Source: Salvia splendens (Eukaryota; Streptophyta; Magnoliopsida; Lamiales; Lamiaceae). Taken from it: DNA of 64,000 nucleotides. The first letter of the stretch is position 1, and every line of letters starts with the position of its first letter. Below, one piece after another: positions 13,861-63,240 of this stretch. The notes below the pieces were generated by a model. The model was not told the DNA's origin, searched no databases, and saw only the letters and a list, made by a program, of their open reading frames with translations. The DNA lies in the NCBI RefSeq assembly GCF_004379255.2, contig NC_056035.1:20295902-20359901 (forward strand), written 5' to 3'. The position numbers were made by a program, and so were the translations under genes.

Positions 13861-14887
13861 TAAAATGTTGTTGGATGGGGAATTTCAACAATTTTGAAAA
13901 TATTTAGGAATATATTTGTAATTTTATAACTAAATAATACGTTTATAAAAATATTTTTAACAAATTAGCTATATTAGAGAATTTGAAAATTCTATATGAA
14001 TTGAACGATTTAATTGGTGGAATAGTGAGGCATTGTCAATTGGCTTTTCGCACGAAAAATATGTATGGTCGCATTCAACGGCCTAACTTTGAGGAATGTA
14101 GACTGAATTTGGTAAATTGCAATTGCAATTGCAATTCCAATTCCAATTCCAATTGTGTAAAATAGTAAGGCATGTGGGTCAAGAGAAATAGGCTGTTACG
14201 TATCTTTTTGTCGATCAATTTTAACAGATAAGAGCAAATTTAAAACACTCCGTTCACGTGTATGCACTTGAATATTTCTAATTATAAACAAAGTCTCTTT
14301 TTTCTTTTAAAGAAACCAGAATAAATCCTATGCCCACCCAAGGATAATTAAAAAACGACCCATGTAAGTGGCACAAACAGTAAAAGGAGGATTAAAATGT
14401 TCCATTTTTTTTATATAAACTTCATATGTGGCTTCTAATAGTATTAAATTCATAGTGGAATGAAATCAACAAAATCGAAACTAGACAAATATCATCAAAA
14501 ATACTATATGAGTATAGGTTCTCATGCGGCTGTGGCGACCATTTACCAATATTTGACATAAAAACCTAATCCCACAATTCCTTACTCATGCCTACCTACA
14601 TATTGGAGTACAAATTTACAAAATGCTCTTTTCATAATTGACAAAAAAGAAACCTTACTCCTTTCAAAGTAACATTTCTTCCTCTGAGCATTGTTTTTTT
14701 CTTCATTTGCTGTTCCTGTTTTTCAAATTCACAGGGTTACAAGCACAACATATCTCTGCCCCAACTGACCTGCATAAGCCAAACAGAATTCATTCTGTAA
14801 CATGATAATATAACAGATAATAAAGCTTCAGCTATACTATTTCCGTTAGGGTAATACCAAACGACAAACTTTGGCTCCGGTAATTTC
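13861..14887. other. intergenic and TAF12b 3' region
   Basis: AT-rich DNA with an (AATTGC/AATTCC)n short repeat at 14116-14154. The right part (from about 14650) probably holds the TAF12b 3' UTR. No other gene. Confidence 0.5.
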
Positions 14888-17800: not shown

Positions 17801-19123
17801 ATTTTTAATTTGAAAGCTTCAATCAACACACATTTTGGTTCTGTCACGAATAAAAAATTCTGGAGATGGCAAGCTTCAATCAATCAGCACTGATACAACA
17901 TTACCAAGCATTACACACGGCTGAAATAACAAAGTCGCATACAATTCAAAACAGAAACTTTTCAAAGCAAAAGAGACGAGACATATGAGTAGAAGGTGGA
18001 GCATACACAAGTCATTCAATTGGTACAAGAGCCTTTGCCATCACAGGAGCCACTCTATTGCAAAACACAATATCTCTCATTACACAATGCCAACAACACA
18101 AGCAAAATATAAGCAGAACAGAAGATTTGACCTACAAATACAAAAATTCCCAAGTCACAAGGGTTGTGCAAAACACATTAGTAAAGCAAACCTCAAGCAA
18201 AAGCTGCACAAGGCGTGAAGTTTTCAAGAACAACAATTACACACAACAAACAATAAGGATAAGTTGTCCAGAGCATAGTAGAAACATTATTTATCTTGTA
18301 CTAGTAAATAATCAGGCATCATAAAATAGAATATAATCAGTTTCTTTTCTCTATCACTACCAATGACAGAGTATGTTAGCGACCTGTGCAGCAGGAGACT
18401 GGTTCGTCGGGCTCGATTGCGGTCTAAGAGATGACTGTGAAGGCCTCAGCTGATTCGAAGACACGCCTGCGGGACGCATTGAAGACGAGGCGCCCAGTGC
18501 ACCCGTCATTCCCATTCCTTGCACCGGCTGCCTTATCTGTAGTACAAACAAGGCCGATAATCACCAAATTCCCCAATTGCATAAACAAAATAGTGGCATG
18601 ATCAATTGAACACCGCAAAGTATGAAAAGGGGGAAAATACATTGCGTTGGAGCCCTAGGTAAAAGTAATTCAATGTTTAACAAATAAGCAGGAATTAAAC
18701 CTGAGGCTGCTGAGCGTAAGCGGGAGGAGTGTGTGAGGAGAACGAGGCAGGCGAAGGGGGGCCGGTGGAGGGGCTATGAGCAGGGACTCCGATCGCCATT
18801 CCAGGGCGAGGCGGTGGCGGAGCGGAAATCGAAGAGGATATTGAGGCGGAAGAAGCAGGCATGGGCGGAGACGGGAGGGAGAAGTGAGAGTAGGGCGGCT
18901 GCTGCCATGGCCGGGTGTTAAACGGCGGCCTTGTTTGGGAATTGCTAGATTGTGTCGCGGCAGGAGGTTTTAGGGATGGCGTGGGGTTTGAAGATGTGAA
19001 TGAAGTGGTAATGGTGGTGGTGGTGTTTGCTGGGGCGGCGGATGTGACGGAAGAGGTGGCGGTTGTAGTTTGCGACGGCGGCGGCGGGTCGGTGGGTTGA
19101 GGAGTGGAAGGCGTTTGATCCAT
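14888..19123 (-). CDS. TAF12B: TFIID/SAGA subunit TAF12b
   Basis: Eight exons: 18701-19123, 18384-18536, 17247-17756, 16767-16841, 15479-15557, 15343-15407, 15201-15236, 14888-15031. The sum is 1485 nt, or 494 aa. TAF12 pairs with TAF4-type partners through an H2B-like histone fold in the nuclear TFIID and SAGA complexes; plant TAF12b (EER4) is also linked to ethylene and cytokinin responses. The first about 350 residues are a low-complexity Ser/Thr/Pro/Gln-rich activator-like region, with a His run (HHHH) in exon 3. The histone fold (about 350-425) runs [68 protein letters not shown]. It is followed by the conserved PGFGGDEIR and ELHRERLAA segments. The start at 19123 opens [12 protein letters not shown]. 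Introns 4 and 5 are enlarged by MITEs. No lesions. Confidence 0.96.
15829..16034. mobile_element. Stowaway MITE in TAF12b intron 4
   Basis: 206 bp between TA dinucleotides. Left end CTCCCTCCGTCCACAACAC; right end GGGAGACGGAAGGAG. The interior (CCCACATTCC..CTAACTT) matches the inner nested copy at 26881-27133. Confidence 0.85.
16083..16464. mobile_element. hAT-type MITE in TAF12b intron 4
   Basis: 382 bp with inverted ends CAATGTTATCAA and TTGATAACATTG. Exact 8-bp target duplication CTAAATTT (16075-16082 and 16465-16472). The subterminal regions are rich in GGCGG/CCGCC-type motifs (GCGGATATGGCGGCGCC, CCGCCATATCC) in both orientations. Confidence 0.9.
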
Positions 19124-19199
19124 TGAATCGAAAGGGGGGAAATTGCGACGGAGGTGAGTGAAGGCAAACATATAAAAGGGGGGAATTACAGTTTCAATA

Positions 19200-19585
19200 T
19201 TTTTATTATAAATATTTTTTGTTTTAGTATTTACTTATTAAATTAATTTGACTAGTTGTAAAATGAATTTGGATTCACCATTTTCCACGCTCACAAAAAC
19301 AAAAATGTTATCAAAAGGGAATTTATTGCTACAAATTGCAATTCATGAGAAAATGAGGTATTTGTTGAAAGTAGGGCTGGTTCATCTGGTCGATTTGGTT
19401 GTTCAATTAATTGGTTAATCGATTAAATTTTTTATGTAATCGAACTGACTTGCTAATCAGTTAGTCTATTAACTGATCGGTTAAAACCGATTGTTAGTCG
19501 GTTAACTGATTTATAACCGTAATAAAAGGTTTGCAGAGATGTGACTGGTCCTAATTTAGTCTGTTAACCGATAGAGACCACCATG
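19200..19585. other. TAF12b upstream region
   Basis: AT-rich promoter side, then a GGTTAATCGATT/AATCGGTTAAC-rich stretch (19365-19575) that looks like one end of a degraded repeat beginning GTAGGGCTGGTTCATC. No gene. Confidence 0.4.
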
Positions 19586-20136
19586 CAGCGACGGAACTAC
19601 ATAGTGCCAAGCCCCCGCGCCAGCGGGGGCTTAGCCGGAACCAAATGCAGATTACCCCTTACACGTCTGTCCTCCGCCCCAGAGAGGGCCTGCACTCCAG
19701 CCGTTCAGAGTCTTCAGACTTGAGCGTCGCCGATACTCTGAATCTGAAAATTGAAAAATGAAGAAGAGAAGACTTGGGCCTAATAGTTTTGGGCTATTTA
19801 TTTGATTGTTGGGCTACATTTTAATTTTGGGCTATAATACCATTTATATACTTCCGCCTTTTTAGTAATATAAACTTATTTTCTAGTCAAATCTAATTAA
19901 AGTAACGACTAATTTTTCAATTAATTTGAATAAATTTTTTTTTAAGTTGAGGCTCTGAACTTTATTTAACGATCTGATTCAGAAATACTCCAATTTTAGT
20001 AATTATGAAATTAATATATGAATTATAATTTGTTTTTATGGATTCTGAAAATAATTAGTTATATATTTGTGTTGTAATTTATGTTCTATGATGTGTATGA
20101 ATTTGATAATATATATTTATTGAACTTTTATTTATT

Positions 20137-30614: not shown

Positions 30615-32050
30615 GGCCATCCACGCCATCGTTCCGTCGCGGAGAGACTGAACGCTCGAGCGACGCGTTGCGGCACACCGACCCGTCCCTGCGAGACAAG
30701 AGACGGGCTGTCTCGCCACGCAACGTGGTGCGCCCCTGCACCATGCGTGACGCCCACTCGCGGGCCCGCGAGCGGGCATCGTTAAGCGCTAACGCAATAA
30801 ATCTTTTTTTAAAAAAATCCGAATTTAAAAAAAAAATTAAAAAAAATTGTAAACGGTAATATTACCGTTTAGAGTAAAGTCCTAATTTGGTCCTTAACAT
30901 ATTGCGTTTTTTTTTATTTTGGTCCAAAACATTATCTTTTGAATTATTCGGTCCCTCACATTTGAAATCGGATCACATTTGGTCCATTTTGGACGGTTCC
31001 GTCAAATTTTTGACGGTTTTAATTACCGGGTCACAAATCCGTCACTATCAAAGAGAAACTGATCCGTCACTAATCCGTCACAAATCTATCACAAATCCGT
31101 CACTAACATGTCACTAATCCGTCACTAATTATCATTTTAGTCATTTACGTGTAAGTTACATAAATTAGGAAGAAATTGAGGCATGAAAGTACTATTATTA
31201 GAATAATGATAATTAAATACTAATATATTAACTAACTAAAATATAGAATAGTAAGTGGTATCAAAAAGTAGTACTTCTACTTTTTATTGTTGAAAATCGA
31301 CGGACACGTATTTACATGTTTCTATATGTAGCCTAATAAAATTTGACTCTTTTTCTATAAGTAAACAATTATATACACTTTCATTTAATTATAAAGTCTA
31401 ATAAAGTAAATACCTATATTTATATACTTTACAAATACTAATTTTATGCATGTGTACGTAGTGACGAATTAGTGACGGATCAGTTTCTCCCAGTTAGTGA
31501 CGGATTAGTTACGGATTTGTGACATGGTAATTAAAACCGTCAAACATTTGACAGAACCGTCCAAAATAGACCAAATGTGATCCGATTTCAAATGTGAGAG
31601 ACCGAATAATTCAAAAGATAATATTTTGGACCAAAATAAAAAAAACGCAATATGTTAAGGACCTAATTGAGACTTTAGTCTACAGTTTATATCCAATTTT
31701 TTCTTCTTCTTTTTTTTTTTATTTTTTAATTAATTTTTTTACTCTATAAATACTCTTAATTCATCCTCATTTCACACACAATTTTTTTTATTTTTTAAAA
31801 TTTTAATTTGTAATTTTTTTTATGTTGTGTGTTTTTTAATGAAGTGTGTTTGTTTTAATTGAATTGAGTTGGAAATAAAAATAAAAAAATGAAATTGAAT
31901 GAATAGTAATTTAAGGGACGGTTTAAGGGACGGTTAAGGGACGGATGGTTGCAGGTTCCGTCCCTTAGTTAAGGGATTGAGTAAAAAAGTACAGTGGACC
32001 CCTCAAATAGTAGTTTAAGAGACGGTATAGAGACAGCGTAGTGGATGGCC
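30615..32050. mobile_element. Harbinger deletion derivative interrupted by a MULE-like element
   Basis: Ends GGCCATCCACGCC and GTAGTGGATGGCC, followed by TAA. Without the 809-bp insert at 30872-31680 it is about 630 bp. It shares with the ORF1-bearing elements the subterminal CACTCGCGGGCCCGCGAGCGGGC, the AATATTACCG motif, the promoter-like TCTATAAATAC (31744) and the right-end GGGACGG repeats. No coding capacity remains. The left flank is GAA rather than TAA, so that border is less certain. Confidence 0.75.
30872..31680. mobile_element. MULE-type MITE with about 210-bp terminal inverted repeats
   Basis: 809 bp, GAGTAAAGTCCTAATTTGG ... CCTAATTGAGACTTTAGTC. Flanking 9-mers TACCGTTTA and TACAGTTTA differ at one base. 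The arms share CTTAACATATTGCGTTTTTT, CATTTGAAATCGGATCACAT, CCGTCACTAA and others. Tandem TCCGTCAC motifs cluster at 31040-31125. No transposase. Confidence 0.85.
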
Positions 32051-32370
32051 TAAGGCCACTCGCAACGCGTCACACGGGTGGCCCGTCACTAAGAGACGAG
32101 ACGGCGGCGTGACGCGTTGCAGCGCTCCGTCTCGTCCCAAACCCGCTCTGCGTTCTGTCCCACCGTGACGAATGGCGAGACGTCTCGCCACGAGCCAAGC
32201 CGACGTGGCACGCTCCGGCGCCATGCGTGACGTCCACTCGCCGGACCGCGAGTGGGCATCGTCACGCTGATGCAATAAATTATTTTTTAAAAAACAATTC
32301 GAATTAAATAAAAAAAATAAAAAAATGGTAATATTACCGTTTTTCCTTTTTTTTTTTAATTTTTTTAGTC

Positions 32371-32378
32371 TATAAATA
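32371..32378 (+). promoter_or_regulatory. TATA box of the Harbinger ORF1
   Basis: TATAAATA in the context GTCTATAAATATTCC, about 105 bp before the ORF1 ATG. The same TCTATAAATA leader precedes ORF1 at 61598 and, on the minus strand, the transposase at 57057-57064. Confidence 0.6.
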
Positions 32379-32475
32379 TTCCTAATTCAACCTCATTTCA
32401 CACACAAATACACATCTATTCTTCTCAAATCATCTCCATTTCTTCTCCAATTTTCATCTAACCTCTCAACACAAA

Positions 32476-33597
32476 ATGTCCGGCGACGGAAACTCTGGCG
32501 GTGGCGGCTCCGGCGGGTTCGACATCAACGCGTTCGGCGACTGGGGGGCATGTACAATGTCCTAGGTGGTGATTCTGGTTCGTCGACGCCGGGCACCCAG
32601 GGTTCGTCGACGTCGGGGGTACCAACCACCCCATTTTGATGTGGATACATACGCCCGTCCCTCCGCCCCGAGATATTCGCATGGATTATCCCAGATTCGA
32701 GAGGATTATTCCGTTGAACCCACTCCGGAAGAAGGCCGAGGCGGTGGAAGCTCCAGGGTGGAGGTGGACGAGGAGGAGGAGGATCTAGGCCGGCATCCGT
32801 ACGGCCCCAAAGAAACGTTGGCGGTGTACAACGCCTGGATCAGCGTCTCCTACGATCCCATCGTCGGGAATCAACAACCACGGAAGTGCTTCTAGGAAAA
32901 GGTCACCGAGGCCTACCACGAGATTAAGCCGAAGGGGTCCCGCCGCCGCACATATAAGATGCTCCGCGCTCACTTTGACCGAGTTGACAGAGAGGTCAAA
33001 AAATTTTGCGCCATCTACAAGAGTGAAACGGCTCCTTACCAAAGCGGAGCCACGGGAGCCGACATTCTGAGGTCGGCTTTGCGAGTCTACTACGACGACA
33101 CCGCCAAACAATTCAAATATGTCGATGTTTGGGAGGTCGTCAAAGACGAGGAAAGGTGGGCCGGCGGTGTGAGGTCCAGCTCGGGCTCGACCTCGAAGCG
33201 CACGAAGCACACGGCGGGTGGCCAATACTCGTCTAGTGAGGGCGGTTCGGGCAGCACCGCAGGTGAGTTTACCTCGCAGGAGGTTGAGGGCACGACAGAC
33301 GATGCCGGGGGGTCCTCCCCTGGGCGCCGTCGGCCGCAAGGGAGAAATGCGGCGAATGCGGCTAGAGGGAGGTGGGGCCGAGCCGAATCAAGCCAGGCGG
33401 GTTCGGGGGCACCCTCGAAATCCCTAATGTCCATGTATATGACAGCCACAATGACGGACACTTCTCGCATGACGCCTCCCCAATACCAAGCCTATCTTGC
33501 CGGAATTGAGTTTATGGCAAGACAACTTGGTATTCCGCCTCCAGGTGGCTTCAGTGCACCTCCACTGCCTTCAGGGGATGATTCGCCGGCAGAGTAG
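32476..33597 (+). pseudogene. Harbinger ORF1 (Myb/SANT-like, NAM-associated) pseudogene
   Basis: Degraded copy of the intact gene at 61708-62895. The start MSGDGNSGGGGSGGFD at 32476 is preserved, then the frame is lost near the GDWGA segment (about 32540). The frame open from 32566 stops at a TAG (32893-32895) where the intact copy has a Trp codon (KCFWEK). The remaining frame to 33597 keeps the DNA-binding/NAM-associated region (HFDRVDREVKKFC, YKSETAPYQSGATGADIL, FKYVDVWEVVKDEERW) and the Arg/Ala-rich basic tail. So there is at least one frameshift and one nonsense mutation. In active elements this protein works with the transposase to bind element ends. Confidence 0.88.
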
Positions 33598-34345
33598 TTT
33601 TTTTTATTTTCTATAAAATTGTATTTTAAATTATGTAATTTTTATTTTTTAGGATTTTAATTATGTGTTTTTTTTTATTTTTTTGAATTCTAAGTTGTAT
33701 TTTTATTTTATGTTGTAATTTTATTATTTTTAATGAAGTGTGTTTTTATTAATTGAATTTGTTGGAAATAAAAATAAAAAATGAAATTGAATGAATAGTA
33801 ATTTAAGGGACGGATAACAGATGGAGGGTTGCAGGTTCCGTCCTAGAGTTAAGAGATGAAGTAAAAAAGTACAGTGGGGCCCATGAATAGTAATTTAAGG
33901 GATGGATAAGTGACAGGTTGCGGATGACCTAACCAGTGTGTCACGCTATAACCAGTGGCAGACACACATCCAAGGGTGGAAGGTCTTAAGCTCTCCCCAA
34001 ATTATATTTTCTTTTATATTTTGTACTTCAAAAAAATTCAAAATGTTTGACAAAATGTCTTTAGTCCTCACCAAATTACTGTATCTGAAGTCTAAAATGT
34101 AAAAGATTGAATAAGGAGGGGCTGAAACTTGAAATTGCAGAACAAAGTTTAAAAAAATGGCTGCCGTTGCCGGTTGAAGAAGAAGATGAGATAACCAAGG
34201 CTAATTAAATTAATAATAAAAGTAAAATTTGCAAATTTCAAGTCCCCTGCCTATAGGCTACACCCATATCACATGTTCTACATTTATTAGTACGTTTTAG
34301 TGTTTTACAAATGTTTAATTATTGCATTGTAATTTAAAAATATTA

Positions 34346-36559: not shown

Positions 36560-36863
36560 GATCATCTGCAATAGCGGGTGTCCCGACGGATGTTCGCTAT
36601 TGCAGCGGAAGAGGCGGACGCGGACGTCCCATGCGGACGAGAGGTCGTCCGCGGGTGTCCTTATGAATTTTAATTCCGTAAAATTGCATATTTGTGAATT
36701 TGTGAATTTTGATTATTGGGATGTCCGCCGGGATGTCATTGGGTGTCCGCTATTATGGAGTGGGATGTCCTTATGACGTGGCAGTGCTGTGGGATGTCCT
36801 TACGACGTGACAAGAGGTGTTTTGGGATGTCCGCCGGGACATCCGTCCCTATTGTGGATGCTC
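36560..36863. mobile_element. Harbinger MITE of the 55-57 kb transposase family
   Basis: 304 bp, GATCATCTGCAATAGCGGG ... CCCTATTGTGGATGCTC, with TAA on both sides (36557-36559 and 36864-36866). Subterminal GGATGTCC/GGACATCC and GCGGACG motifs match those of 55362-57280, so it looks like an internal-deletion derivative mobilised by that transposase. Confidence 0.85.
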
Positions 36864-43059: not shown

Positions 43060-46000
43060 TCAACTTCTTTTACACATCCCAACCAACTTCAAACACAACT
43101 CAAACTTCTCCCTCGGTAAGGTTTTGGTGAGCATGTCGGCTGGATTTTCCAAGGTGTCTACCTTAAACACCTTCACCCTTCCCTTCTCTATCTCTTCACG
43201 AATGAAATGCAGACGCACATCTATGTGCTTGCTCCTCTCATGAAACACATTGTTCTTAGCTAAGCTGATGGCACTTTGGTTGTCACAACCAATGGCTACT
43301 GCCTTCTGACTAACACCAAAATCTGCAGCTATCCCCTTCAACCAAAATGACTCTTTCACAGCTGCTACCAAGGCCATATATTCGGCCTCTGTGGTGGACA
43401 ATGCAACCACACTTTGCAAGCTGGATTTCCAGCTCACTGCACTTCCATATAGGGTGAAAATGTAACCTGACTGGGACTTTCTACTGTCAATATTCCCAGC
43501 ATAATCACTATCACAATAACCCACCAACGCATCCCCTTTTACCTCCTTATTTCCCTTGAACAGGATCCCAAGGTTTCCTGCTCCATTCAAGTACTTTAAT
43601 ATCCACTTCAAGGCTGACCAATGCTCCTTGCCATGGTCACTCATGAACCTGCTGGTTACACTGATGGCTTGAGCCACATCTGGCCTCGAGCTGATCATTG
43701 CATACATGATACTCCCCACAATATTGGCATAAGGGACTTTCTGCATCTCAGCTCTCTCTTCCTCAGTTTGTGGCTTCTGCTCAACAGACAATCTGAAGTG
43801 TTGGGCCAGAGGAGTTGCTGTAGGTTTTGTGTCTTGCATCTTGAACTTTCTGACCAATCTCGAAATGTAATCAGACTGGTTCAACCAAATCTCCTTCTTG
43901 GATCTATTTCTAACAATGTTCATGCCCAAGATCCTTCTAGCATTCCCAAGATCTTTCATATCAAATGCTGACTTCAGATCCTCTTTGATCTCTTGAATCA
44001 CCTTCTTGCTTGAACCAGCAACTAGCATATCATCCACGTACAAGAGCAAATAAGCCACCACCAGACCCCCTTTCTTCTTGATATAAACGCATTCATCATA
44101 TTTCGATCTAGTGAAGCCATTTGCCAAGATATGATTATCAAACTTGATATGCCATTGCCTACTAGCTTGCTTGAGGCCATATATACTCTTTTTCAATAGA
44201 CAAACTTTGTTTTCCTCCCCAGCTTTGGCAAAGCCCTCTGGCTGTTGCATAAAGATTGTTTCCACCAAATCTCCATGCAAAAAAGCCGTTTTCACATCGA
44301 GCTGCTCCAGCTCCCAGTCCAGCCTTGCAACCACTGCCAAGAGAGTTCTTATGGATGTGTGCTTCACCACAGGAGAGAAGACCTCACTATAATCAACTCC
44401 ATACTCTTGTGTGAAGCCCCTTGCTACAAGTCTAGCCTTGTATCTGATTTTCACATTATCAGCCGACTCCAATTTCTTTTTGAATATCCACTTGCAGCTC
44501 ACAATCCTTCTTCCTTCAACTTTGTCTACCAATATCCATGTCCCATTTTTCAGCAAGGAGTCTATCTCCTCAACCATGGCTTTCATCCACTCACTTCTTT
44601 CTTTGCATTCCATGGCAGCTTTATATGTGGCTGGTTCCCCAAACTCCACCTCCTCAGCTACACATAATGCAAAGTAAAGCATCTCTGAGTCAGCATATCT
44701 GGCTGGCATTTTGACATTCTTTCTCCTGACTCTATCTCGAGCTAACTGATATTGACTGAGATCCTCAGTCTCTGCATCTGACCCTTCTTGTGGCTGATCA
44801 ATATTTCCATCATTTGCTCCACCTGGAACCACCTCTTCAGACTCCACTTCAGGCTCCACCTCAGGCTGTATTCCAGATCTCATAGCTTCATCAGATACTG
44901 CAGCAGCCTTTGCAGAACCTTGTGACTTATTGAAGGGCATCACAAACTCATTGAAGACTACATCTCGGCTCACAATGATCTTGTGATTTCCAGGTTCAAT
45001 GCTCCAAAGCCTGTATCCCTTTACACCAGGTTGGTATCCCAGAAGCACACATTTCACTGCCCTTGCATCCAGCTTACTTTGCTTGAGGTGTGCATAGGCT
45101 TGGCAGCCAAATATCTTGAGATCTGAGTAGTTTCCATATGTCCCATACCATTTAAAGTCTGGAGTGTCACTCTCAATGGCTGAAGAGGGACATTTATTCA
45201 ATAATTTCACAGCAGTTGCAGCAGCTTCAGCCCAAAATTTCTTCTCCATTCCTGAACTGAGCAACATACACCTTACTCTCTCTAATATGGTGCGGTTTGC
45301 CCTTTCTGCCACCCCATTTTGTTGGGGGTTTAGTGGAACGGTTTTGTGGCGTCTGATCCCTCTATCCTGGCAGAATCTATCAAATTCTTTTGACAAAAAT
45401 TCGAGTCCATTGTCTGTCCTCAGACAGCCCAGAGATCTGCCTTTCTCTCTTTCAACCATAATGCACCAATCTCTAAACTTAGTAAAGGCCTCAGATTTTT
45501 CCTTCAAGATATATAGCCATATTTTTCTGGAATAATCATCTATTATGGTCATATAATACCTCCCTCCTCCAACTGAATTCACAGGGGAGGGTCCCCACAA
45601 ATCACTATGTGCATAATCAAGAGGTGCTTGTGATAGATGTTTACCTTTTGGATAAGGGAGCTTCTTTGACTTGCCAAGAATACACTCTTCACATGGCTCA
45701 CCATTCTTGCTTTCCAGCCCATGAATAACTCCCTTTTTAATCAACTCCTTAATGCTCCCAGCTGCTGGATGCCCGAGTCTCATGTGCCAAGTTTTCACAG
45801 ATTCTGGCACAATGTTGTTCAGTTGACTGCCCCTGATCCTGACTGCAGCTCCACACAAGTAATAGAGGCTTCCCTTCCTCTCTCCATGCATAATCACAGT
45901 GGCCCCCTTCTTGATTTTCATCACTCCATCCGAGGACTCAAAAGTGCACCCCTTCTTCTCAAGCATCCCTAGTGATATAAGGTTTCTCTTCACTGTGGGG

Positions 46001-47055
46001 ATCAGCCTAACATCGCTCAAGATTTTCTCAGAGCCATTATCCAGCCTGAGTTTTACATTCCCTATAGCTTCAACATGACATACTTGATTGTTCCCAAGTA
46101 TAACTGTCCCAGTTGACTCTCTCAAATCAGAGAAAAATTCCACACATGGACATATGTGGAAGCTGCACCCGGAGTCAAGAATCCATGAACTCCCATCCTC
46201 ATATGCCATAATATTCAATACCTCAGGGGACTCCTCAGCTTCTTCCACAAAATCAGTGGTGTTCTTCCCCTTTCCAGATTCAGCAGCTTGTTTCTTTTTC
46301 CAAGCGAAGCAATCCTTCTTTAGGTGACCCGGCTTCTTGCACCAAAAACAAGCTCGAGTCTCCTTTTGATCAATTGAGGGTGCCTTGCTATTCTCACCAA
46401 TTTTCTTGAACATCTTCTTGGCTTTGAACTTTCTGACATTGAGGCTCTCTGGAACAACTTCAGCCTCCTTGCATCCCTTCTTGTGCAGTTCTTTGGCCCT
46501 CAGAGCATTTTGAACTTCTTGGAAAGTAACCGTGCCTTCCCTTCCAAAGAGTATGGCATCTCTCAATTGATCATAGGACTTTGGCAAGGCATTTAATAAT
46601 AGTATGGCCTTGTCTTCATCACCAATGGAAACATCAATGTTTTCCAAATCATCCACTGCCTTATCAAAGTCTTCCAGCTGCTCTAGTATTCCCTTTTCCT
46701 GCGAAAACCGGTATGAATATAGCCTCTGCTTCATGAAGAGGCGATTTGCGAGGGACTTTGTCATGTATAGATCCTCAAGTTTCTCAAGAACCCCAGCGGC
46801 GGTTGTCTCTTTTGCAACTTCCCGCAACACCTTGTCGCCCAAGCACAGCACCACCGTGCTGTGTGCCTTTGCAAAAACCTCTGCGCGCTTGGCCTTGGCC
46901 TTTTCATCGAGCACTTGGCCTTCACCTTCCTTGCTCGCCGGCGCCAGAGCCTCAGACAAACCCTGCTGGATCAACATCGCCTTCATCTTCATTCTCCAAA
47001 GGCTGAAGTCGTTTTTCCCGGTAAATCTTTCTGCTTCGAATCTTGAAGCCATCAT
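43060..47055 (-). CDS. copia gag-pol polyprotein
   Basis: 1331 aa from the ATG at 47055 (MMASRFEAERF), similar in length and order to Tnt1-type polyproteins. Gag (UBN2-like) comes first. The zinc knuckle CFWCKKPGHLKKDC is at about 236-249. The aspartic protease has WILDSGCSFH (DSG at 294-296). The integrase has the GAG-pre-integrase His/Cys region (TWHMRLGHPA) and the core with D..D..E (HSDLWGP, RTDNGLEF, NGVAERANRTI). The reverse transcriptase has ARLVARGFTQ, KTAFLHGDL and the catalytic YVDDM. The RNase H has GYCDSDYAGN, ALSTTEAEYMAL and ENPADMLTK. There is no stop or frameshift in 4 kb. The frame is also open upstream through the leader into the 5' LTR, but the ATG after the primer site is the sensible start. 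Confidence 0.97.
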   Translation of the reverse strand: MMASRFEAERFTGKNDFSLWRMKMKAMLIQQGLSEALAPASKEGEGQVLDEKAKAKRAEVFAKAHSTVVLCLGDKVLREVAKETTAAGVLEKLEDLYMTKSLANRLFMKQRLYSYRFSQEKGILEQLEDFDKAVDDLENIDVSIGDEDKAILLLNALPKSYDQLRDAILFGREGTVTFQEVQNALRAKELHKKGCKEAEVVPESLNVRKFKAKKMFKKIGENSKAPSIDQKETRACFWCKKPGHLKKDCFAWKKKQAAESGKGKNTTDFVEEAEESPEVLNIMAYEDGSSWILDSGCSFHICPCVEFFSDLRESTGTVILGNNQVCHVEAIGNVKLRLDNGSEKILSDVRLIPTVKRNLISLGMLEKKGCTFESSDGVMKIKKGATVIMHGERKGSLYYLCGAAVRIRGSQLNNIVPESVKTWHMRLGHPAAGSIKELIKKGVIHGLESKNGEPCEECILGKSKKLPYPKGKHLSQAPLDYAHSDLWGPSPVNSVGGGRYYMTIIDDYSRKIWLYILKEKSEAFTKFRDWCIMVEREKGRSLGCLRTDNGLEFLSKEFDRFCQDRGIRRHKTVPLNPQQNGVAERANRTILERVRCMLLSSGMEKKFWAEAAATAVKLLNKCPSSAIESDTPDFKWYGTYGNYSDLKIFGCQAYAHLKQSKLDARAVKCVLLGYQPGVKGYRLWSIEPGNHKIIVSRDVVFNEFVMPFNKSQGSAKAAAVSDEAMRSGIQPEVEPEVESEEVVPGGANDGNIDQPQEGSDAETEDLSQYQLARDRVRRKNVKMPARYADSEMLYFALCVAEEVEFGEPATYKAAMECKERSEWMKAMVEEIDSLLKNGTWILVDKVEGRRIVSCKWIFKKKLESADNVKIRYKARLVARGFTQEYGVDYSEVFSPVVKHTSIRTLLAVVARLDWELEQLDVKTAFLHGDLVETIFMQQPEGFAKAGEENKVCLLKKSIYGLKQASRQWHIKFDNHILANGFTRSKYDECVYIKKKGGLVVAYLLLYVDDMLVAGSSKKVIQEIKEDLKSAFDMKDLGNARRILGMNIVRNRSKKEIWLNQSDYISRLVRKFKMQDTKPTATPLAQHFRLSVEQKPQTEEERAEMQKVPYANIVGSIMYAMISSRPDVAQAISVTSRFMSDHGKEHWSALKWILKYLNGAGNLGILFKGNKEVKGDALVGYCDSDYAGNIDSRKSQSGYIFTLYGSAVSWKSSLQSVVALSTTEAEYMALVAAVKESFWLKGIAADFGVSQKAVAIGCDNQSAISLAKNNVFHERSKHIDVRLHFIREEIEKGRVKVFKVDTLENPADMLTKTLPREKFELCLKLVGMCKRS

Positions 47056-55361: not shown

Positions 55362-55701
55362 GGGCATCCGCAGTGGTGCGGATGTCCCGACGGACATCCC
55401 AAAAACACCTCCTGCCACGTCATACGGACTTCCCACTGTGGATGCCACGTCATACGGACATCCCACTGCACAGTGGCGGACATCCCCAAGGACATCCCGA
55501 CGGACTTCCCACATTAAAAAAATCACTAATTCACCAATTTAACAATTTACGGAATTAAGTAATTTACGGAAGAAAAATTCGAAACGAATACGGAATAAAA
55601 ATTTCATCAATTAAAAAAACGAAAAGTACATTTCACCAAAATAAAAAAATACATTTCAACAATTAAAAACTCCATCAACGACGACCCCTCCGCTACCATA
55701 C

Positions 55702-56976
55702 TTATTCAATTATATCGTTCTGGAGTCGAACATGGGCTTGTTTTTGGCGCATGTTGGCGAATGCACGGACTCGCTCGACATCGTCATGGGGTATCCCCAT
55801 GCGTACATTGCCAGTGGCCACGCCGTGGCTTGGACCCGCAGCCGTAGCATCATCGTTGGCCCAATCGGTCAGCGCTGAGCCTTCATCTTCGACAATCATG
55901 TTGTGCATGATAATACATGCGTACAGGATGTCGGCGATGCTGTCAACATACCAAAGCCGTGACGGACCCTTTACTACCGCCCATCGAGACTGGAGCACAC
56001 CAAATGCCCGCTCCACATCCTTGAGCGCTGCCTCCTGACGTTGCGCAAAGTATATCTTCTTTTCATCCGTTGGGCATCTGATCGTCTTCACAAAGACGGG
56101 CCATATCGGGTATATCCCATCCGCTAAATAATAGCCCATACCCATACTGTGCTGGTTTCCGTTGGCGACGAAACTGACGGCCGGACCGACGGCCATGCAC
56201 TGGTCGTTGAAGAGGGGCGACGACTGGAGGACGTTGATGTCGTTTTTAGACCCGGCTACTCCAAAATAGGCATGCCAAATCCACAATCGGTAGTCAGCTA
56301 CTGCTTCAAGGATCATCGTGATATTCTTGGCCTTGAAACCAGTAGAGTACATCCCTTTCCAGACAGCGGGGCAGTTCTTCCATTCCCAGTGCATACAATC
56401 TATGCTGCCTAACATCCCCGGAAACCCGTGCTGATTCCCGTGCATATCCAGCAGAGCCTGACAATCTTCGGGGGTAGGCTTCCGAAGATACCTATCCCCG
56501 AATATCTCCCTAACGCCCTGATAAAAATACTTCAGGCAGTCGCGGGCAGTCGTCTCGCCGATGTGGAGGTACTCGTCGAACATGTCGGCCGCACCTCCAT
56601 ATGCCAACTACCTAATTGCGGCAGTGCACTTCTGAATCGGCATGTGGCCGGGTTTACCAGCCGCATCCTCCCGCACCCTAAAATACCCGTATCGACGCTT
56701 CAAAGCGCCCACGATACGCAGAAAGAGCGGACGAAGCATCCTAAAGCGTCGCCGGAATACGTTCTACCCAAACCGTGGCTCCGGCGCAAAGTAATCATTG
56801 TACAACCGACCGTGGGCAGCGAGGTGATCCCGGGGCACTATAGTGCGATGATGTATGGGTCGAGGCACCGTGCGTGTATCATCCGCATCATATGTTCATT
56901 GTTCATAATGCCCACCACCACCACTACCACTACCACTACCACTACCACTACCACTACCACTACCACTACCAGACAT
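55702..56976 (-). pseudogene. PIF/Harbinger transposase with three nonsense codons
   Basis: The natural start is the ATG at 56976 (MSGSGSGS..., a Gly-Ser stretch encoded by a GGTAGT repeat at 56920-56972), and the frame then runs to a TAA at 55702. In-frame stops interrupt it at a TGA after GHYEQ, a TAG after EPRFG and a TAG after KCTAAIR. The last gives an undamaged 301-codon stretch below 56607. Family features are the N-terminal PRPIHHRTIVPRDH, NVFRRRFRMLRPLFLRIVGA, the DDE domain (SIDCMHWEWKNCP with the first Asp; GSKNDINVLQ with the second), YYLADGIYP, and the C-terminal ERAFGVLQSRWAVV and HNMIVEDE. Related to HARBI1-type nucleases. Because all three lesions are single substitutions, decay is recent. 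Confidence 0.92.
56920..56972. repeat. (ACTACC)n repeat in the transposase N-terminus
   Basis: Nine or so hexamers; minus strand GGTAGT encodes the Gly-Ser run after the initiator. Confidence 0.85.
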
Positions 56977-57056
56977 TACGGAAATATAAAAGAAATTTAG
57001 AGAGAGAGAAACTTGTTAAAACAAGTGGTGCGAATGAAATGAAATGCAACGAGACG

Positions 57057-57064
57057 TATTTATA
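57057..57064 (-). promoter_or_regulatory. TATA box of the Harbinger transposase
   Basis: Minus strand TATAAATA within TTCTATAAATACG, about 80 bp upstream of the ATG at 56976. Similar to the TCTATAAATA boxes of the ORF1-only elements. Confidence 0.6.
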
Positions 57065-57340
57065 GAATTTTTCAAAAAAAAAAAAATGCTAAAATCGGGA
57101 ATTCCGCGCCTACGTCCGTGGGAGTCAACACAATGGCGGACGTCCCGACGGACGTCAGCGGAAAGGCGCAGACATGCGGTGTCCGTATCGGACGTCCGTA
57201 TCCGCTGAACAGTTGCTCAATGGCGGACGTCGCGCACGACGGTCTGACATCCGCGAGGAAGTCCGCTATTGCGGATGCTCTAAATTTCGATTTGTATACA
57301 TACATAAATATATTCTGTTACTATAAACAATTGAATATTA

Positions 57341-57605
57341 CTCCTTCCGCCCAGGCTAAGATGACACATTCATTAACCGACATGGGATTTTATGAGTTGT
57401 TGGTTAAAGTGTTTAATTGGAGAGAGGAAAAGTGGATGAAAGTATTAAAATAGAGAGAGAAAGAAAGATGAATATTTTAATAGGAGTGAAAAAAGTTGTT
57501 GGGTGTATTAATTGGAGAGAGAAAGTTTCCAAAAAAGGAAATGTGTCATCTAAGTTGGGACAAACTAAAAATGAAAACGTGTCATCTTAAGCGGGACGGA
57601 AGGAG
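57341..57605. mobile_element. Stowaway-like MITE
   Basis: 265 bp; CTCCTTCCGCCCAGGCTAAG ... GTCATCTTAAGCGGGACGGAAGGAG, TA flanks. Confidence 0.75.
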
Positions 57606-57644
57606 TAGTTAGTATTAAAATTTATTTTTTAAAATAAATTTATA

Positions 57645-57923
57645 GTCTATCCGTCCCAATTAAAATGACACACTTTCCTTTTATTTTGTTTAAAATAAGA
57701 TTATACTACATTTATATTTTTGGAAACAATAAAGTAATTTTTTCTCTAATTGATACACTCAACCACTTTTTCTTCCTCCAATAAATTATTCAACTCTTAT
57801 TCTCTCTTGTTTTATATTTATACCTATATTTTGTCTCTCCAATTAAAAATATATTACCAATAACTCTAAAAATATTGTACCAATTAATTAAGAAATGTGT
57901 CATCTTAGGTGAGACGAAATGAG
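57645..57923. mobile_element. Stowaway-like MITE
   Basis: About 279 bp; GTCTATCCGTCCCAATTAAA ... GTCATCTTAGGTGAGACGAAATGAG; same subfamily as 57341-57605, in tandem with it. Confidence 0.7.
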
Positions 57924-58286
57924 TACTAATGATTCATACTTAAAGTCAGATCTTTTTATTAATTACGGTGTGCTAATTTAGGTACGTGTGTTATGAGTAC
58001 AAGGACAAGCCTAATAAATGTGGGGTGATACACGCATAGAGTGTGTTATTAATTAGTTTTTTTAAAAATATTATTAGATGATTTCACTAATAATGGTAAA
58101 TTTCTCTATTTATGCAGGTCTATCTTGAAACTAATATATAGGTTTAATAAATCAGGGGATGATACATTGGCTACTGTGTCCGAGAAAAAAAAATTGGTTT
58201 ATGTTGAGACAAGGAGAAATCATGTTTAGAAAGCTTTTTTCCTTTTCGACATAATTTATAAAAAATAGGAAAATCTCATCAATTAC
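57924..58286. other. intergenic, no gene seen
   Basis: AT-rich; no exon identified. Confidence 0.45.
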
Positions 58287-58495
58287 TTTGTCGTTCTATT
58301 CAGAATGTTGAACTTTCTTTTCTAATTTATTTTATTCGAGATATCCAATTTTTATATTTAGAAAGAAATCCTCCTCTCATCTCTTTTCACTAAAATATTC
58401 AATTACATTTTTTCTTTCTATTTATTCCATATAATAATTTATTCTAAAATCTCGTGCCACTAAAAAATATAGACTTCTCGAGTGGGACGGAGGAA
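58287..58495. mobile_element. Stowaway-like MITE, left end diverged
   Basis: Right end ACTTCTCGAGTGGGACGGAGGAA; left end TTTGTCGTTCTATTCAGAATG. Same subfamily as 24211-24415. Confidence 0.55.
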
Positions 58496-58578
58496 TTACT
58501 AAACTTTTTCCTTATCTTTTGTCCAACACTTCAAGAGGATTACACCATTTCTTTTTCATATATACGGTATATTAAATG

Positions 58579-58748
58579 GAATGAGATCCTCTGCTGTGGT
58601 GGGGAGCATAGCAGAGCTGCTGCCCTCACACATACAAATATTTTAATAATAAATTTGAATTATTAAAAACAAAATTTAATATAAAATATTTTTTTGTGAG
58701 GGGCAGCAGCCTTTGCTGTGCTCCCCACCACAACATGGGATCCCTTCC
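58579..58748. mobile_element. GC-rich foldback element
   Basis: Arms GAGATCCTCTGCTGTGGTGGGGAGCATAGCAGAGCTGCTGCCC and its near inverse GGGCAGCAGCCTTTGCTGTGCTCCCCACCACAACATGGGATCCC around an AT-rich loop. The flanks TATTAAATGGAATGAGATCC (58568) and TATTAAAGGAATGAGATCCC (58750) form a roughly 20-bp direct repeat. Confidence 0.75.
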
Positions 58749-58754
58749 CATATT

Positions 58755-59037
58755 AAAGGAATGAGATCCCTGCTGTTGGAGTTCAGTACTTGTGTCAAAG
58801 GATAATTAAGTTGTCAATATTACAGATTAAGTTATAGGAGTAACAAATACACGTGAAAATTGGTTATACATTATGGGCCATAGCAATTGAAGAGAGTAAA
58901 TATTTATTTGTATTATAAGCAGAAAGCTAACCCAAAAGGATACGAAAAAATCAAAAAGATCTTAGATGTATCTAGTAGACTAGTACTAGTACACTAGTAC
59001 TCTAGTTATGTGATGTATATACATTAGAATACTTTAA
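58755..59037. other. intergenic, no gene seen
   Basis: AT-rich DNA left of a Harbinger insertion site. Confidence 0.45.
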
Positions 59038-60606
59038 GGGCATGTTCAGTGTTTCAGATATAGCGAGAAATGGGCTCTTTTCCATACAAATATGGCCGTT
59101 CAATGTTTAAGTATTATTTCTGGACAGCCCGATCCGAAATGGAAGGCCCGCACTGTTCATTTCAGTTTTTTAGAGAAATCAATTCTTCCGAGTGAGACAA
59201 GAAATGATACAGCATTGCGAACCCCACCCAGAAATGAATGCACTTTTCCGGAGTTGCCCCTCACATTTTCATTTCCCCCCCCCCCCTTGTCTCTCTCTTG
59301 TGTTCTCAATTTTTCGTTTCCCCCTCTTGCATCGGAAACCCTAGGCCATCAACTTCAACACAATTTTCTGCAGAGAACTGCCTCACCACCTCCGTCAGCG
59401 TTTAATAAACGACAAAAATTTGCCGCCTCCAAGGTAATGGTGTACATATATATATGCCAAGTAGTCGTGCGGTGGTGGGTAAAAAATGGGTTTTGAGATT
59501 GACGATCTCGGTTCGTTTTTGCAGGGAAGATCCAGTTGCAGAAACGTTGAACCGTGTGCAATTCTTCACGTCTACAGGGTTTGGTGCAAAGGGGCGGCTG
59601 AGAAGGTTGAAATTAACCAGGTACTTTATATTGACGACCGCTTGGTCAAATCTGCAAATCTGAGTTGTATGAATATACATGGCTACTATGTGTTATGAAG
59701 TTTTCCTGTATTTAATTTGTTTATTTTACCCACCACGATCCGGATAGAGCAATGTACTATTGTGCCTCACTGGCTTCTCTGTACCATATGAATTCATAGT
59801 ATTTGTTGGGTATAATTTAGCACAACTGCAGACTTGGGATTTGTTTTCCTATACAGGGTGGTAATTTAATCAGCTGTATATAGATATAATTACAAACAAT
59901 GACAACGTCCAATGCTGCTAAGTATGCATTCTTGATGATGATGATGATGATGATGGAAGACATTATGCTCGTTTACTGAGCAGAGACCACTCTACTTGTA
60001 CATAGGTACATGACCGCGCGCAGTAGATCGGCCAAAAGGAGATTTTAGACCACGCCAGACATTTCAGTTTGCTAAAAAAAATTCCAGATCAGATGAAACA
60101 CCTAGATCGTCTAGTTAAACTTTCAAATGTAGATTCTATAGCTAATCTTTGTATGGACGTGAATACCTTCGGTAGACTTTGTCAAATTCTATCACAAAGG
60201 GGTGGGCTGATAACTGGGAAGTCCCTACCCGTTGAGGAACAAGTAGCAATATTCGTTGGGGTTCTGGCACACCACAATAAAAATCGCGTAGTCAAATTCA
60301 GGTTTAGGCGATCAGGTGCAACAGTGTCATATTACATGCAAAAGGTACTTTATGCCGTTTTGAGCTTACATGATGTGCTGCTAAAGAAACCCACACCAGT
60401 AACAGCCGACTGCACAGATAATAGATGGAGGTGGTTCGAGGTAATGGAAATTTTTAGTCTATTAATCTTCTCTAATGTGAAATCTAAGCCTCTATTTTAA
60501 TCAAATACTTGTTTCTCAGGGTTGCCTTGGTGCATTGGACAGGACGCATATCAATGTGTTGGTCAGTAATGAGGACAAACCAACCTCTACAACACTGAAC
60601 AGACCC
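59038..60606 (+). mobile_element. PIF/Harbinger element with truncated HARBI1-like gene
   Basis: 1569 bp, GGGCATGTTCAGTGTTTCAG ... ACAACACTGAACAGACCC, with TAA on both sides (59035-59037 and 60607-60609). It is a separate lineage from the GGATG-ended Harbingers here. It contains the 5' part of a transposase gene and a (GAT)n run near 59933-59955. The catalytic domain is deleted. Confidence 0.88.
60069..60593 (+). pseudogene. HARBI1-like transposase, N-terminal fragment
   Basis: Exon (60069-60440) followed by an intron (60441-60519, GT...TTTCTCAG) and the start of the next exon. Recognisable segments are MDVNTFGRLCQILSQRGGL, EEQVAIFVGVLAHHNKNRVV, FRRSGATVSYYMQKVL, VLLKKPTPV and RWRWFE, then across the splice GCLGALDRTHINVLV. 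The last block carries the first Asp of the DDE triad. Shortly afterwards the frame runs into the element's right terminal repeat, so everything beyond the first catalytic residue is deleted. The splice site position after RWRWF is where this family normally has it. The likely N-terminus lies upstream of 60069 but is not resolved. Confidence 0.85.
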
Positions 60607-60609
60607 TAA

Positions 60610-61209
60610 ATACATAAATCTCGTTTCCTCTGTTTCACCCAAATTTGTTGATTTAAAAGTATGTCTGGTTCTTTTTAACTGAATATTAAAGGTCTGATTA
60701 AGCCTAAATCATTATGGAGTAGTATCAAATTTTTTTTTGTTTAACCACATGTGCACCGAATCCGTCTTTTGACGGATAACGCTGAGCAGTACACAATAAT
60801 ATAATCGGATACCCACTCATATAATTTATTGTCATTTTCTCCACTTTAGACTTATGAGGGTAATTTGTAATTTGTGAAAATTTATTATACATTTAATCAT
60901 ATATTTTTAACATTTAATATTTTTCACATAGAGGGAATACAAAAATCAAAATTTTAAATGATAAATTTTTATACTATAAATTATAGAAGTAGCATTAAGT
61001 GATAGAAATTGAGTGAAGCAGATAATGATAGCATAAAATTAATGGAGGCAAAATTAGGGTAAGAAAACAAAATAGAAATAGGAAGGGTTGGTGTGATGAA
61101 AACAAATCGTAAAATACCGAGAATGCCCCTGTGGTGCCAGGTAGGCCATGAGGACCCCCCAAAATAGACCTAATCATTGTATCAACAACTTAAAATCCTT
61201 GTATGATTA
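60610..61209. other. intergenic, probable LITTLE ZIPPER promoter region
   Basis: AT-rich DNA with a SINE tail fragment at 60728-60795 (minus; GATTCGGTGCACATGTGGTT plus A run). It would have lain directly upstream of the LITTLE ZIPPER leader before the Harbinger inserted at 61210. Confidence 0.45.
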
Positions 61210-61597
61210 GACCATCCACAACGGGTCTCGCCGGCGTCTCGCGTCTCGTCTCGCTCAACGGGTCTCGCCGGCGTCTCGCGTCTCGTCTCAGCGAGACGAG
61301 ACCCCGGCGAGACGCGTTGCAGCCTCCATCTCGTCCCGCGTCTCGTCGCGCGTCTCGACTCGGCGAGCCACGAGACGAGCTGTCTCGCCACGCGCCTAGG
61401 CGACGTGGCGCAGCCCGGCGTCGTGCGTGACGCCCACTCGCCGGCCCGCGAGTGGGCGTCGTCACGTGCTGATGCAATAAATATTTTTTTTTAAAAAAAA
61501 TTCGAATTTAAATAAAAAAAAAAATTTGTAACGGTATTATTACCGTTTTTTTGTTTTTTTTTTATATTTTTTTTGTTTTTTATTAAATTTTTTACTC

Positions 61598-61605
61598 TAT
61601 AAATA
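61598..61605 (+). promoter_or_regulatory. TATA box of the Harbinger ORF1
   Basis: TATAAATA in CTCTATAAATACTCC, 110 bp upstream of the ORF1 ATG. Confidence 0.65.
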
Positions 61606-61707
61606 CTCCTAAACCCATCCTCATTTACACACAACTACACATCTATTCTTCCTATCATCTAAATTTTCTCTCAAATTTTCGCTGAAATTTTCATAACCCA
61701 ACTCAAG

Positions 61708-62895
61708 ATGTCCGGCGACGGCGAGGGCAACTATGGCGGCTCCGGCTCCGGCGGGTGGGATCTCAACTCATTCGGCGATTGGGAGAACATGATCAACACA
61801 TTGGGCGGTGGAGGTTCGTCAACGCCGGGGACCCAGGGTTCGGCGACGCCGGGGGGGTACCAACCACCCAATTTTGACCTTGATGCATATGTTCGTCCCA
61901 ACGTCCCGCGGTTTTCGCAGGGATTATCCCAGATCCGGGAGGATTTTCCAGTTGATCCCACGCCGGGAGTAGGCCGAGGCGGTGGAGGTGGGCGAGGCGG
62001 TGGAGGTGGCCGAGGCAGTGTACAACCCCAGACGGGCGAGGACGAGGAGGAAGAAGAGGAAGAGGAAGAGGATCTTGGCCGACATCCGTACAACAACCTC
62101 GAAACGATGGCGGTGTACAACGCCTGGATCACGGTCTCGTACGATCCCATCGTCGGGAATCAACAAACCCGGAAGTGTTTCTGGGAAAAGGTTGTCGAGG
62201 TCTACCACCAAATAAAGCCGAACCGCTCCCGCAAGCGCACAGTTAAAATGATCCGCTGTCACTTTGACCGAGTCGACCGACAGGTCAAAAAATTCTGCGG
62301 CATCTACTCGGCGGAAGAGGCGCGCTACCAAAGCGGCGCCACGGCCACCGACATTTTGACGTCCGCTTTGCGCGCCTACTACCAGGACGAGGGACATCAA
62401 TTCAGATTTGTTGATGTTTGGCGCGCCGTCAAGGACGAGGAACGATGGGCCAGCGGTTTCCGCTCCAGCTCGGGCTCAAACTCGAAGCGCACGAAGCATA
62501 CGGCGAGTGGCCAATACTCGTCTAGTGCTGGTGCGTCTGGTGGTGACACTGCTGAAGGCATCAGCCAACATGATGCTGAATCCCAGGAGTTTGCGGGTAC
62601 GGTCGGCGATGCAGGAGGATCCGCGAGTAGGCGCCGTCGGCCGCAAGGGACGAAGGCGGCGAAAGCGGCTAGAGCAAGGAAGGGCCGAGGCGAATCAAGC
62701 CAGCCGGCCTCAGGATCGGGCTCGCGAGGAGGCTCGGACACACTTATGGTGGCGTACATGACCGCCACAATGGCGGACACTTCCCGCTTCTCGCACTCCC
62801 AATACGCGGCCTGGTGGAACGGAATTGTGCATATGGCAGCACAACTTGGCCTTCCGACTCCCCCTCAACCTCGACCGCCTCCGGAGGATGATTAG
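61708..62895 (+). CDS. Harbinger ORF1: Myb/SANT-like protein with NAM-associated C-terminal domain
   Basis: Intact 395-aa single-exon frame; plant databases often label such proteins misleadingly as glutathione S-transferase T3-like. Layout: a Gly/Ser-rich N-terminus (MSGDGEGNYGGSGSGGWDLN), a Gly-rich GRGGGG stretch, an acidic run (EDEEEEEEEEED), then the DNA-binding region. That region has ETMAVYNAWITVSYDPIVGN, FWEKVVEVYHQIK, MIRCHFDRVDRQVKKFCGIY, YQSGATATDIL and FRFVDVWRAVKDEERW, followed by an Arg/Lys/Ala-rich basic segment (RRRRPQGTKAAKAARARKGR). In known PIF/Harbinger systems ORF1 binds element ends and helps the transposase enter the nucleus. No lesions, in contrast to 32476-33597. Confidence 0.92.
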   Translation: MSGDGEGNYGGSGSGGWDLNSFGDWENMINTLGGGGSSTPGTQGSATPGGYQPPNFDLDAYVRPNVPRFSQGLSQIREDFPVDPTPGVGRGGGGGRGGGGGRGSVQPQTGEDEEEEEEEEEDLGRHPYNNLETMAVYNAWITVSYDPIVGNQQTRKCFWEKVVEVYHQIKPNRSRKRTVKMIRCHFDRVDRQVKKFCGIYSAEEARYQSGATATDILTSALRAYYQDEGHQFRFVDVWRAVKDEERWASGFRSSSGSNSKRTKHTASGQYSSSAGASGGDTAEGISQHDAESQEFAGTVGDAGGSASRRRRPQGTKAAKAARARKGRGESSQPASGSGSRGGSDTLMVAYMTATMADTSRFSHSQYAAWWNGIVHMAAQLGLPTPPQPRPPPEDD

Positions 62896-63240
62896 CCCTT
62901 CCGATTAATTTTTTTTTATTTTGTGTGTTTTTTTATTTTGTGTGTTTTTTTTATTTTGTGTGTTTTTTTATTTTGTGTGTTTTTTTATTTTGTTTTAATT
63001 TTAATAAAGTGTGTTTGTTTAAATTGAATTGGGTTTTAAAAAAAAATTATAAATTAAATTGAATGAATAGTAATTAAGAGACGGTATAGAGACGGTTAAG
63101 AGACGGAGCGTTGCAGGTTCCGTCTCTTAGTTAAGAGATGGAGGCAAAAAGGACAGTGGGGCCCTCAAATAGTGCTCAAATAGTAGTTAAGAGACGGTTT
63201 AAGAGACGGTATAGAGACAGCGTTGTGGATGGCCTTATAC

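Follow-up and report, generated by a model that had tools for sequence, protein, structure and literature searches.

The 64,000-nucleotide stretch of Salvia splendens DNA considered here (NC_056035.1, positions 20,295,902 to 20,359,901; hereafter the window) contains several PIF/Harbinger transposons that carry a single gene each. A Harbinger element usually carries both of its genes, a DDE transposase and ORF1, in one piece, and Harbinger transposons drive the Tourist-type miniature inverted-repeat transposable elements (MITEs). The window elements and their relatives elsewhere in the genome are assigned to the Pong lineage of PIF/Harbinger and have a divided layout. With a probability of about 0.7, they constitute a bipartite Harbinger in which two single-gene halves, A with the transposase and O with ORF1, have matching ends and would act in trans. 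The window element T and an element termed OT would form another such pair; from its ends and gene content, T is best read as the transposase-bearing member of an older, second pair, with OT as its ORF1 counterpart.

Two elements with matching ends and one gene each were found twice, as A/O1 and T/OT, judged by gene content and by end identities set against shuffled sequence. The single-gene copies are bounded by exact target-site duplications (TSDs), their ends match pair by pair, and A and O are present in many near-identical copies. Each of the delimited copies of A (n = 16) and O (n = 6), as well as T and OT, has one gene, and the layout with both genes in one element was not encountered among them. 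An earlier reading of the window from its letters alone (the sequence-only reading) had proposed a bipartite transposon whose genes are kept in partner elements. The genome copies of A/O and T/OT support that proposal, although not the pairing of T with O1 that it had in mind.

ORF1-only elements of the window

The element O1 (61210-63234, forward strand, 2025 bp) is bounded by terminal inverted repeats (TIRs) GACCATCCACAACG and GGCCATCCACAACG and by TTA duplications at 61207-61209 and 63235-63237. Its ORF1 gene is intact and encodes 395 amino acids (61708-62895, forward strand). The gene is preceded by a TATA box, TCTATAAATA (61596-61605, forward strand), which is alike in A together with part of the 5' untranslated region (5'UTR). 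The final 220 bp of O1 (63015-63234, forward strand) contain CGTCTC subterminal repeats. A second, old ORF1-only element, O2 (32054-33929, forward strand), has TAA on both sides and an ORF1 broken by frame changes and a stop. The third, O3 (30615-32050, forward strand), had been taken for a MITE; it is an O-family relic in which ORF1 is deleted, the promoter and 3' region are retained, and a nested insertion lies at about 30872-31688. The flanks of O3 are unequal (GAA and TAA), and it abuts O2 across a single TAA.

The sequence-only reading had ORF1 standing alone in O1 and O2, and this was borne out: no transposase match was found in O1, O2 or O3 (best E = 0.83). When aligned, the three elements are colinear (end positions of O2 and O3 are displaced by 1-2 bases in the colinearity and end alignments). 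Between O1 and O2, differences affect 23-25% of aligned sites, and among all three they amount to about 19-25% with the leftmost 150 bp excluded. Since the three are colinear and without a transposase match, we infer that ORF1 stood alone before O1, O2 and O3 separated, and that the layout did not arise through unrelated deletions. The same colinearity led to the rejection of independent internal deletions within the O family.

A, the partner of O1

The 806 Mb Salvia splendens assembly was searched for further copies. A search with the transposase profile PF04827 gave 14,831 candidates, of which the best 150 were sorted by score and frame into 84 belonging to a near-identical family, A, and 66 others. 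Searches with the A protein and with O1 ORF1 were read for the best 100 of 19,643 candidates and the best 105 of 16,583 (106 matches), respectively, so that copy numbers of A and O are lower bounds. All 100 A-protein matches covered at least 417 of the 418 residues with 99% identity or more, and five contained stops. The 106 ORF1 matches were 89-100% identical, with stops in 13. Loci for close study were chosen by hand, not randomly; they comprised 20 ten-kb transposase loci, which included A in L023, L024, L025 and L028, and 12 further A loci taken at 3 kb.

A is a transposase-only element of about 2.03 kb with O-type ends. Its protein, a DDE transposase of the PF04827/PF13359 kind, matches PF04827 at 3.8e-95 and contains the stretches VDCMHW, LADGIYP and KDVERAFG, which presumably hold the D, D and E of the DDE transposase. 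The 16 copies examined were 1991-2030 bp long, with identical 3-bp flanks in every case (12 TAA or TTA, two TCA, one TGA, one TTG) and a 418-aa reading frame in 14. None had an ORF1 match (best E = 0.95). On the other side, nine O loci including O1 were examined and six could be delimited, at 1960-2025 bp and with matching TAA/TTA flanks in 6/6; L043, L045 and L048 are left out of the counts because the stretch ended too early or the end pattern was unmatched. No transposase match was present in the six delimited copies (best E = 0.83). The elements have short TIRs of the type G..CATCC.CA. Copies of A (n = 16) differ pairwise by 1.2% on average and those of O (n = 6) by 1.5%, and thus the sampled copies are recent and of similar age.

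The ends of A and O1 match closely, with 84.3% identity over the 5' 300 bp and 98.6% over the 3' 220 bp. The 5' alignment includes the TATA box and extends over the first part of the 5'UTR. At its 3' end, O1 is far nearer to A than to its own relative O2 (80.1%), from which it follows that the A and O ends were made alike after O1 and O2 parted.

T and its partner OT

T (55362-57280, reverse strand, 1919 bp) has TAA on both sides and ends in common with OT. The sequence-only reading had placed a lone transposase here. Its frame does match PF04827 (2.4e-86) and no ORF1 match was found in T; the gene is, however, a pseudogene. The frame is interrupted by three in-frame stops after the MSG start and before an open part of 293 amino acids (55702-56583, reverse strand), so this copy is dead. 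A scan of viral_contigs gave no relatives of the T transposase, and a PDB sequence search with it gave no match. The gene has the TATA box TCTATAAATA at 57057-57066 (reverse strand), followed by a 5'UTR that resembles that of OT to about 25 bases before the start codon.

The partner OT is an ORF1-only element of 2134 bp found in L020/L051 (G000:C15:22968440-22970573), with TAA on both sides. Over the first 300 bp T and OT are 87.7% identical, and over the last 220 bp 95.4%. Their alignment spans the TIR, the subterminal repeats, the TATA box and the 5'UTR and stops about 25 bases short of the start codons. The ORF1 of OT is broken; it is related to the protein P0003 and is about 31% identical to the ORF1 of O1 over 147 columns. 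The first 260 bp of OT were used as a query for further OT-type ends. Four 1.6-kb stretches taken from the best 40 of 1,664 matches contained OT-type ORF1 sequence (fragments only in L053), and no transposase match was found in these four.

T and O1 had been proposed as partners that cross-mobilise each other, and the comparison of their ends argues otherwise. The 15-bp termini are alike at 9-11 of 15 positions (rows O2_R, O3_L and O3_R, with positions off by 1-2, are left out of this matrix), and to that extent the ends are related as had been noted. Behind the TIR, identity is 37% over the 5' 300 bp and 45% over the 3' 220 bp, which is the level of shuffled sequence (20 shuffles per end; means 41-42%, maxima 46-48%). 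Across the pairs, the ends of A or O1 are 37-46% identical to those of T or OT. The subterminal motifs also differ, being CGTCTC in O1 (sparse in O2 and O3) and GGACRTCC in T. The likeness of the T and O1 TIRs is thus a generic Pong-type match as judged from these alignments. T and O1 were rejected as partners, since their ends stand at shuffle level and a closer match exists for both, OT for T and A for O1. The sequence GAGCATCCGCAATAG, listed among the related ends, is the opposite end of T and not the end of a third element.

The TCTATAAATA box, said to be common to these genes, occurs four times in the window where 0.51 are expected, and all four lie within these Harbinger elements; three of them are copies of one promoter (O1, O2 and O3). 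A start of MSG plus a Gly/Ser run had been offered as a second shared signature. It was rejected: in T the run behind MSG is a hexanucleotide microsatellite (ACCACT x 9.7), and MSG is not a common start because the A transposase begins with MDPF and the ORF1 of OT with MEHH.

The ORF1 protein

The ORF1 encoded by O is likely a Myb-like protein that would serve as a DNA-binding helper, given its Pfam scores, the three-helix part of its structure model and its relatives. O1 ORF1 matches PF14303 at 8.9e-4 and MADF at 0.13, both under cut-off, and the OT-type relative P0003 matches Myb_DNA-bind_6 at 2e-4, just under cut-off. The structure model has helices at residues 130-144, 155-169 and 179-206 and a mean pLDDT (predicted local distance difference test) of 58. 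A Foldseek search with this model returned nothing at E = 0.001, with a Zeste match at E = 4.4. Protein database searches with ORF1 gave three and two relatives among the matches listed.

Over 340 codons, the ratio of nonsynonymous to synonymous substitution (dN/dS, or omega; Nei-Gojobori count) between the ORF1 genes of O1 and O2 is 0.50. This is below all of 300 neutral simulations (mean 0.78, minimum 0.52); both the count and the simulations were made with custom scripts. Neutral drift of O1 over about half the O1-O2 distance would be expected to give some 4-7 stops, and none is seen. The simulated neutral frequency of zero stops is at most 0.005 at branch lengths of 0.10-0.20 and 0.07-0.11 at 0.05. 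By these substitution measures, the analysis shows that the ORF1 of O1 has been kept under constraint. For the Myb core and the remainder each taken alone, the ratios are suggestive of constraint; outside the core, omega is 0.56 (simulated mean 0.80, minimum 0.46).

Search for a two-gene parent

The sequence-only reading had asked whether any element in the genome carries both genes. None of the 106 ORF1 matches lay within 6 kb of the best 150 PF04827 matches (nearest 16.5 kb) or of the best 100 A matches (nearest 16.9 kb), with distances measured start to start and the two transposase lists overlapping. As far as these best-scored matches go, the outcome favours the bipartite proposal.

The same method did find two-gene elements of another kind. 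In L012, L014 and L018 (3.83-3.96 kb) and in L013 and L022 (3.97-4.11 kb), one pair of TIRs flanked by matching duplications encloses both ORF1 and transposase; among the loci L009-L022, 10 of 14 had an ORF1 match near the transposase. In a midpoint-rooted tree of 36 transposases, a 99/99 split separates the main transposases of L009-L022, which share their side with a protein from rice and one from Brassica, from A, B, a second transposase of L019, T and named Salvia relatives. On the side of A and T no ORF1 match was found in the delimited elements, namely A (16 copies), B in L026, the L019 element at 345-2304 and T; L027, L021_9483 and L020_1219 were not delimited and are left out. B is a further transposase-only family (L026 4054-5979, 1926 bp) with a 440-aa reading frame, a TTA duplication and the ends GAGCATCTGTAACC and GGGCATCAGTAACC.

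Additional ORF1 genes were seen behind other Pong-type ends in two places, each a possible half of another pair: at about 6575-7608 of L010 behind GGCCATCCGCAATGGGG, and at 8099-10160 of L015/L050 behind GAGCATCCACAATGGCG, the latter with flanks TAA and TCA.

Other elements in the window and neighbouring insertions

The two remaining MITEs that had been linked to T and O1 differ in their relationships. The one at 36560-36863 (TSD TAA) is of the T/OT type, being 80% identical to the gene-distal end of T over 197 bp. The one at 13538-13860 has the TIR GAGCATCCACAATGG, a left flank of CAA against a right flank of TAA, and a match to O and T at the TIR only; the proposed connection is not supported. 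Between T and O1 lies a PIF-type Harbinger element at 59038-60606 that was absent from the sequence-only reading. It has the ends GGGCATGTTCAGTGTT and GGGTCTGTTCAGTGTTG, a TAA duplication and broken frames that resemble a PIF-lineage transposase.

Sibling elements adjoin one another, 3 to about 18 bp apart, in several places: O3 and O2 (window 32050-32054), and A and a defective O copy (L028 6182-6195; L032 2368-2387). Two same-end elements also lie side by side at L019 333-345. It is as if insertion favours the flank of a relative.

Outside the Harbinger elements, the window contains an intact 1331-aa reading frame (43060-47055) flanked by a 27-bp tandem repeat array at 42873 and a second copy of it at 47444. 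The frame is presumably a copia-type polyprotein, and together with the repeat arrays it suggests a young long terminal repeat (LTR) retrotransposon.

Discussion

Four known systems come nearest. Rice Ping, Pong and mPing also have a DDE transposase with a separate ORF1 protein, 15-bp TIRs and TAA duplications, and in a yeast assay the two proteins can be supplied by separate elements (PMC2836001, PMC9921582). Ping and Pong need both proteins, which are obtainable from either element (PMC2836001). Unlike A, O, T and OT, which have one gene each, Ping and Pong hold the two genes in one element. The Harbinger-Snek transposons of sea kraits and sea urchins resemble the Salvia elements in that a single genome contains both transposase-only and DNA-binding-protein-only variants, intact and in multiple copies; the relatives found in sea urchins each encode a single protein (PMC8437027). 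They differ in that sea kraits have full-length two-gene copies and the solo variants are read as likely deletions (PMC8437027), whereas for the divided Salvia elements no two-gene copy was found among the best-scored matches and there are two pairs with pair-specific ends. Medicago MtPH-E elements likewise carry a transposase with no orf1 found; unlike A, they are of low copy, and the available text reports no ORF1-only partner (PMC2213677). Within Salvia, the two-gene Pong-like elements of L012, L014, L018, L013 and L022 have a PF04827 transposase, TAA/TTA duplications and a detectable ORF1 in common with the divided elements, and differ in size (3.8-4.1 kb), in holding both genes within one TIR pair and in transposase clade. 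No description of a bipartite Harbinger surfaced in the top-ranked literature results, a coverage that excludes most subscription journals. Solo-ORF Harbingers are already in print, as Harbinger-Snek, where they occur beside full-length copies.

In the proposed mechanism, A would supply only the DDE transposase and O only ORF1, both from elements of about 2.03 kb. The two proteins, made from similar promoters, would work in trans on both elements. Such trans action would be possible because the TIRs, subterminal repeats, promoter and 3' region of A and O match. ORF1 from O would bind the ends common to A and O, and the transposase from A would cut them. The model for this is mPing, which needs two proteins, from Ping or Pong or both; on that precedent the A transposase and O ORF1 may be expected to act together in trans. 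Neither half would then move without the other, so that the pair would be autonomous and the single elements not. Exchange between partners, for example by template switching during gap repair, may keep the ends alike; the near identity of the A and O1 3' ends favours such exchange. The split may be a single event that preceded the divergence of A and T, in which case exchange has kept the partners alike, or it may have happened repeatedly.

An alternative is that a two-gene parent gave rise to A-type and O-type copies by internal deletion and mobilises them, as for Harbinger-Snek. Common 5' and 3' ends are the expected remnant of deletions from one parent, and there are precedents: in Harbinger-Snek many intact solo-ORF variants accompany full elements (PMC8437027), PePIF1 has ORF1-less copies (PMC6327408) and two Medicago M-lineage elements are without ORF1 (PMC2213677). 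Such an origin is nonetheless unlikely here. No two-gene A/O element appeared when the 106 ORF1 matches were set against the best-scored transposases, and the ORF1-only form is colinear in O1, O2 and O3 despite their divergence. The junction falls near the start codon in both pairs, and 93 of 106 ORF1 matches and 95 of 100 A matches have no stop. Slightly less probable again is a self-sufficient transposase, whereby the A/T clade needs no ORF1 and the ORF1-only elements are passengers with a merely retained open frame. In its favour, the dependence of A on O is a presumption, and some Medicago MtPH-E elements have a transposase without orf1 (PMC2213677); yet the ORF1 of O1 is under constraint, most ORF1 matches remain open, and O and OT are both ORF1 partners with matched ends. 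That T and O1 are mutual partners after all is very improbable: the Pong-type TIRs and the TAA/TTA duplications are alike in both, whereas the ends behind the TIR are unrelated, the subterminal motifs differ and each has a better partner.

Several observations weigh against the bipartite reading. A two-gene element could have been missed, as only the best 100-150 of 14,000-20,000 candidates were scored. At two of the 16 A loci (L028 and L032), a defective O copy directly adjoins A. In L028 each of the two has its own TIRs and duplications, so they are read as two adjacent elements rather than one; in L032 the O copy extends beyond the end of the stretch. Both O copies are too damaged to be among the 106 ORF1 matches, so the distance test misses defective copies. 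Four of the 14 loci of the two-gene clade (L009, L017, L019 and L020) are without a clear ORF1, and no partner turned up for the L019 element or for B, although no search was aimed at B. The T and OT copies that were read are decayed. The Myb identity of ORF1 is weak both by sequence and by fold, and the omega of the Myb core (0.43) is not under all simulations (mean 0.77, minimum 0.36). Elsewhere, solo-ORF Harbingers have been interpreted as deletion products (PMC8437027).

A stronger form of the bipartite reading is an obligate lineage in which the genes have long been on separate elements, several end-specific pairs live in one genome, A and O amplified recently together, and exchange keeps the ends matched; the odds for this form are about even. 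If true, such a lineage would correspond, among DNA transposons, to a multipartite virus, whose genome is split over several particles. Should the two Harbinger genes be able to persist apart, autonomy would belong to the pair. This would affect the calling of autonomous copies and the modelling of bursts, as well as ideas on what holds cheating in check. With its recent, high-copy and mostly open-framed copies, the A/O pair makes two questions testable, namely whether one half can move alone and what keeps the ends matched.

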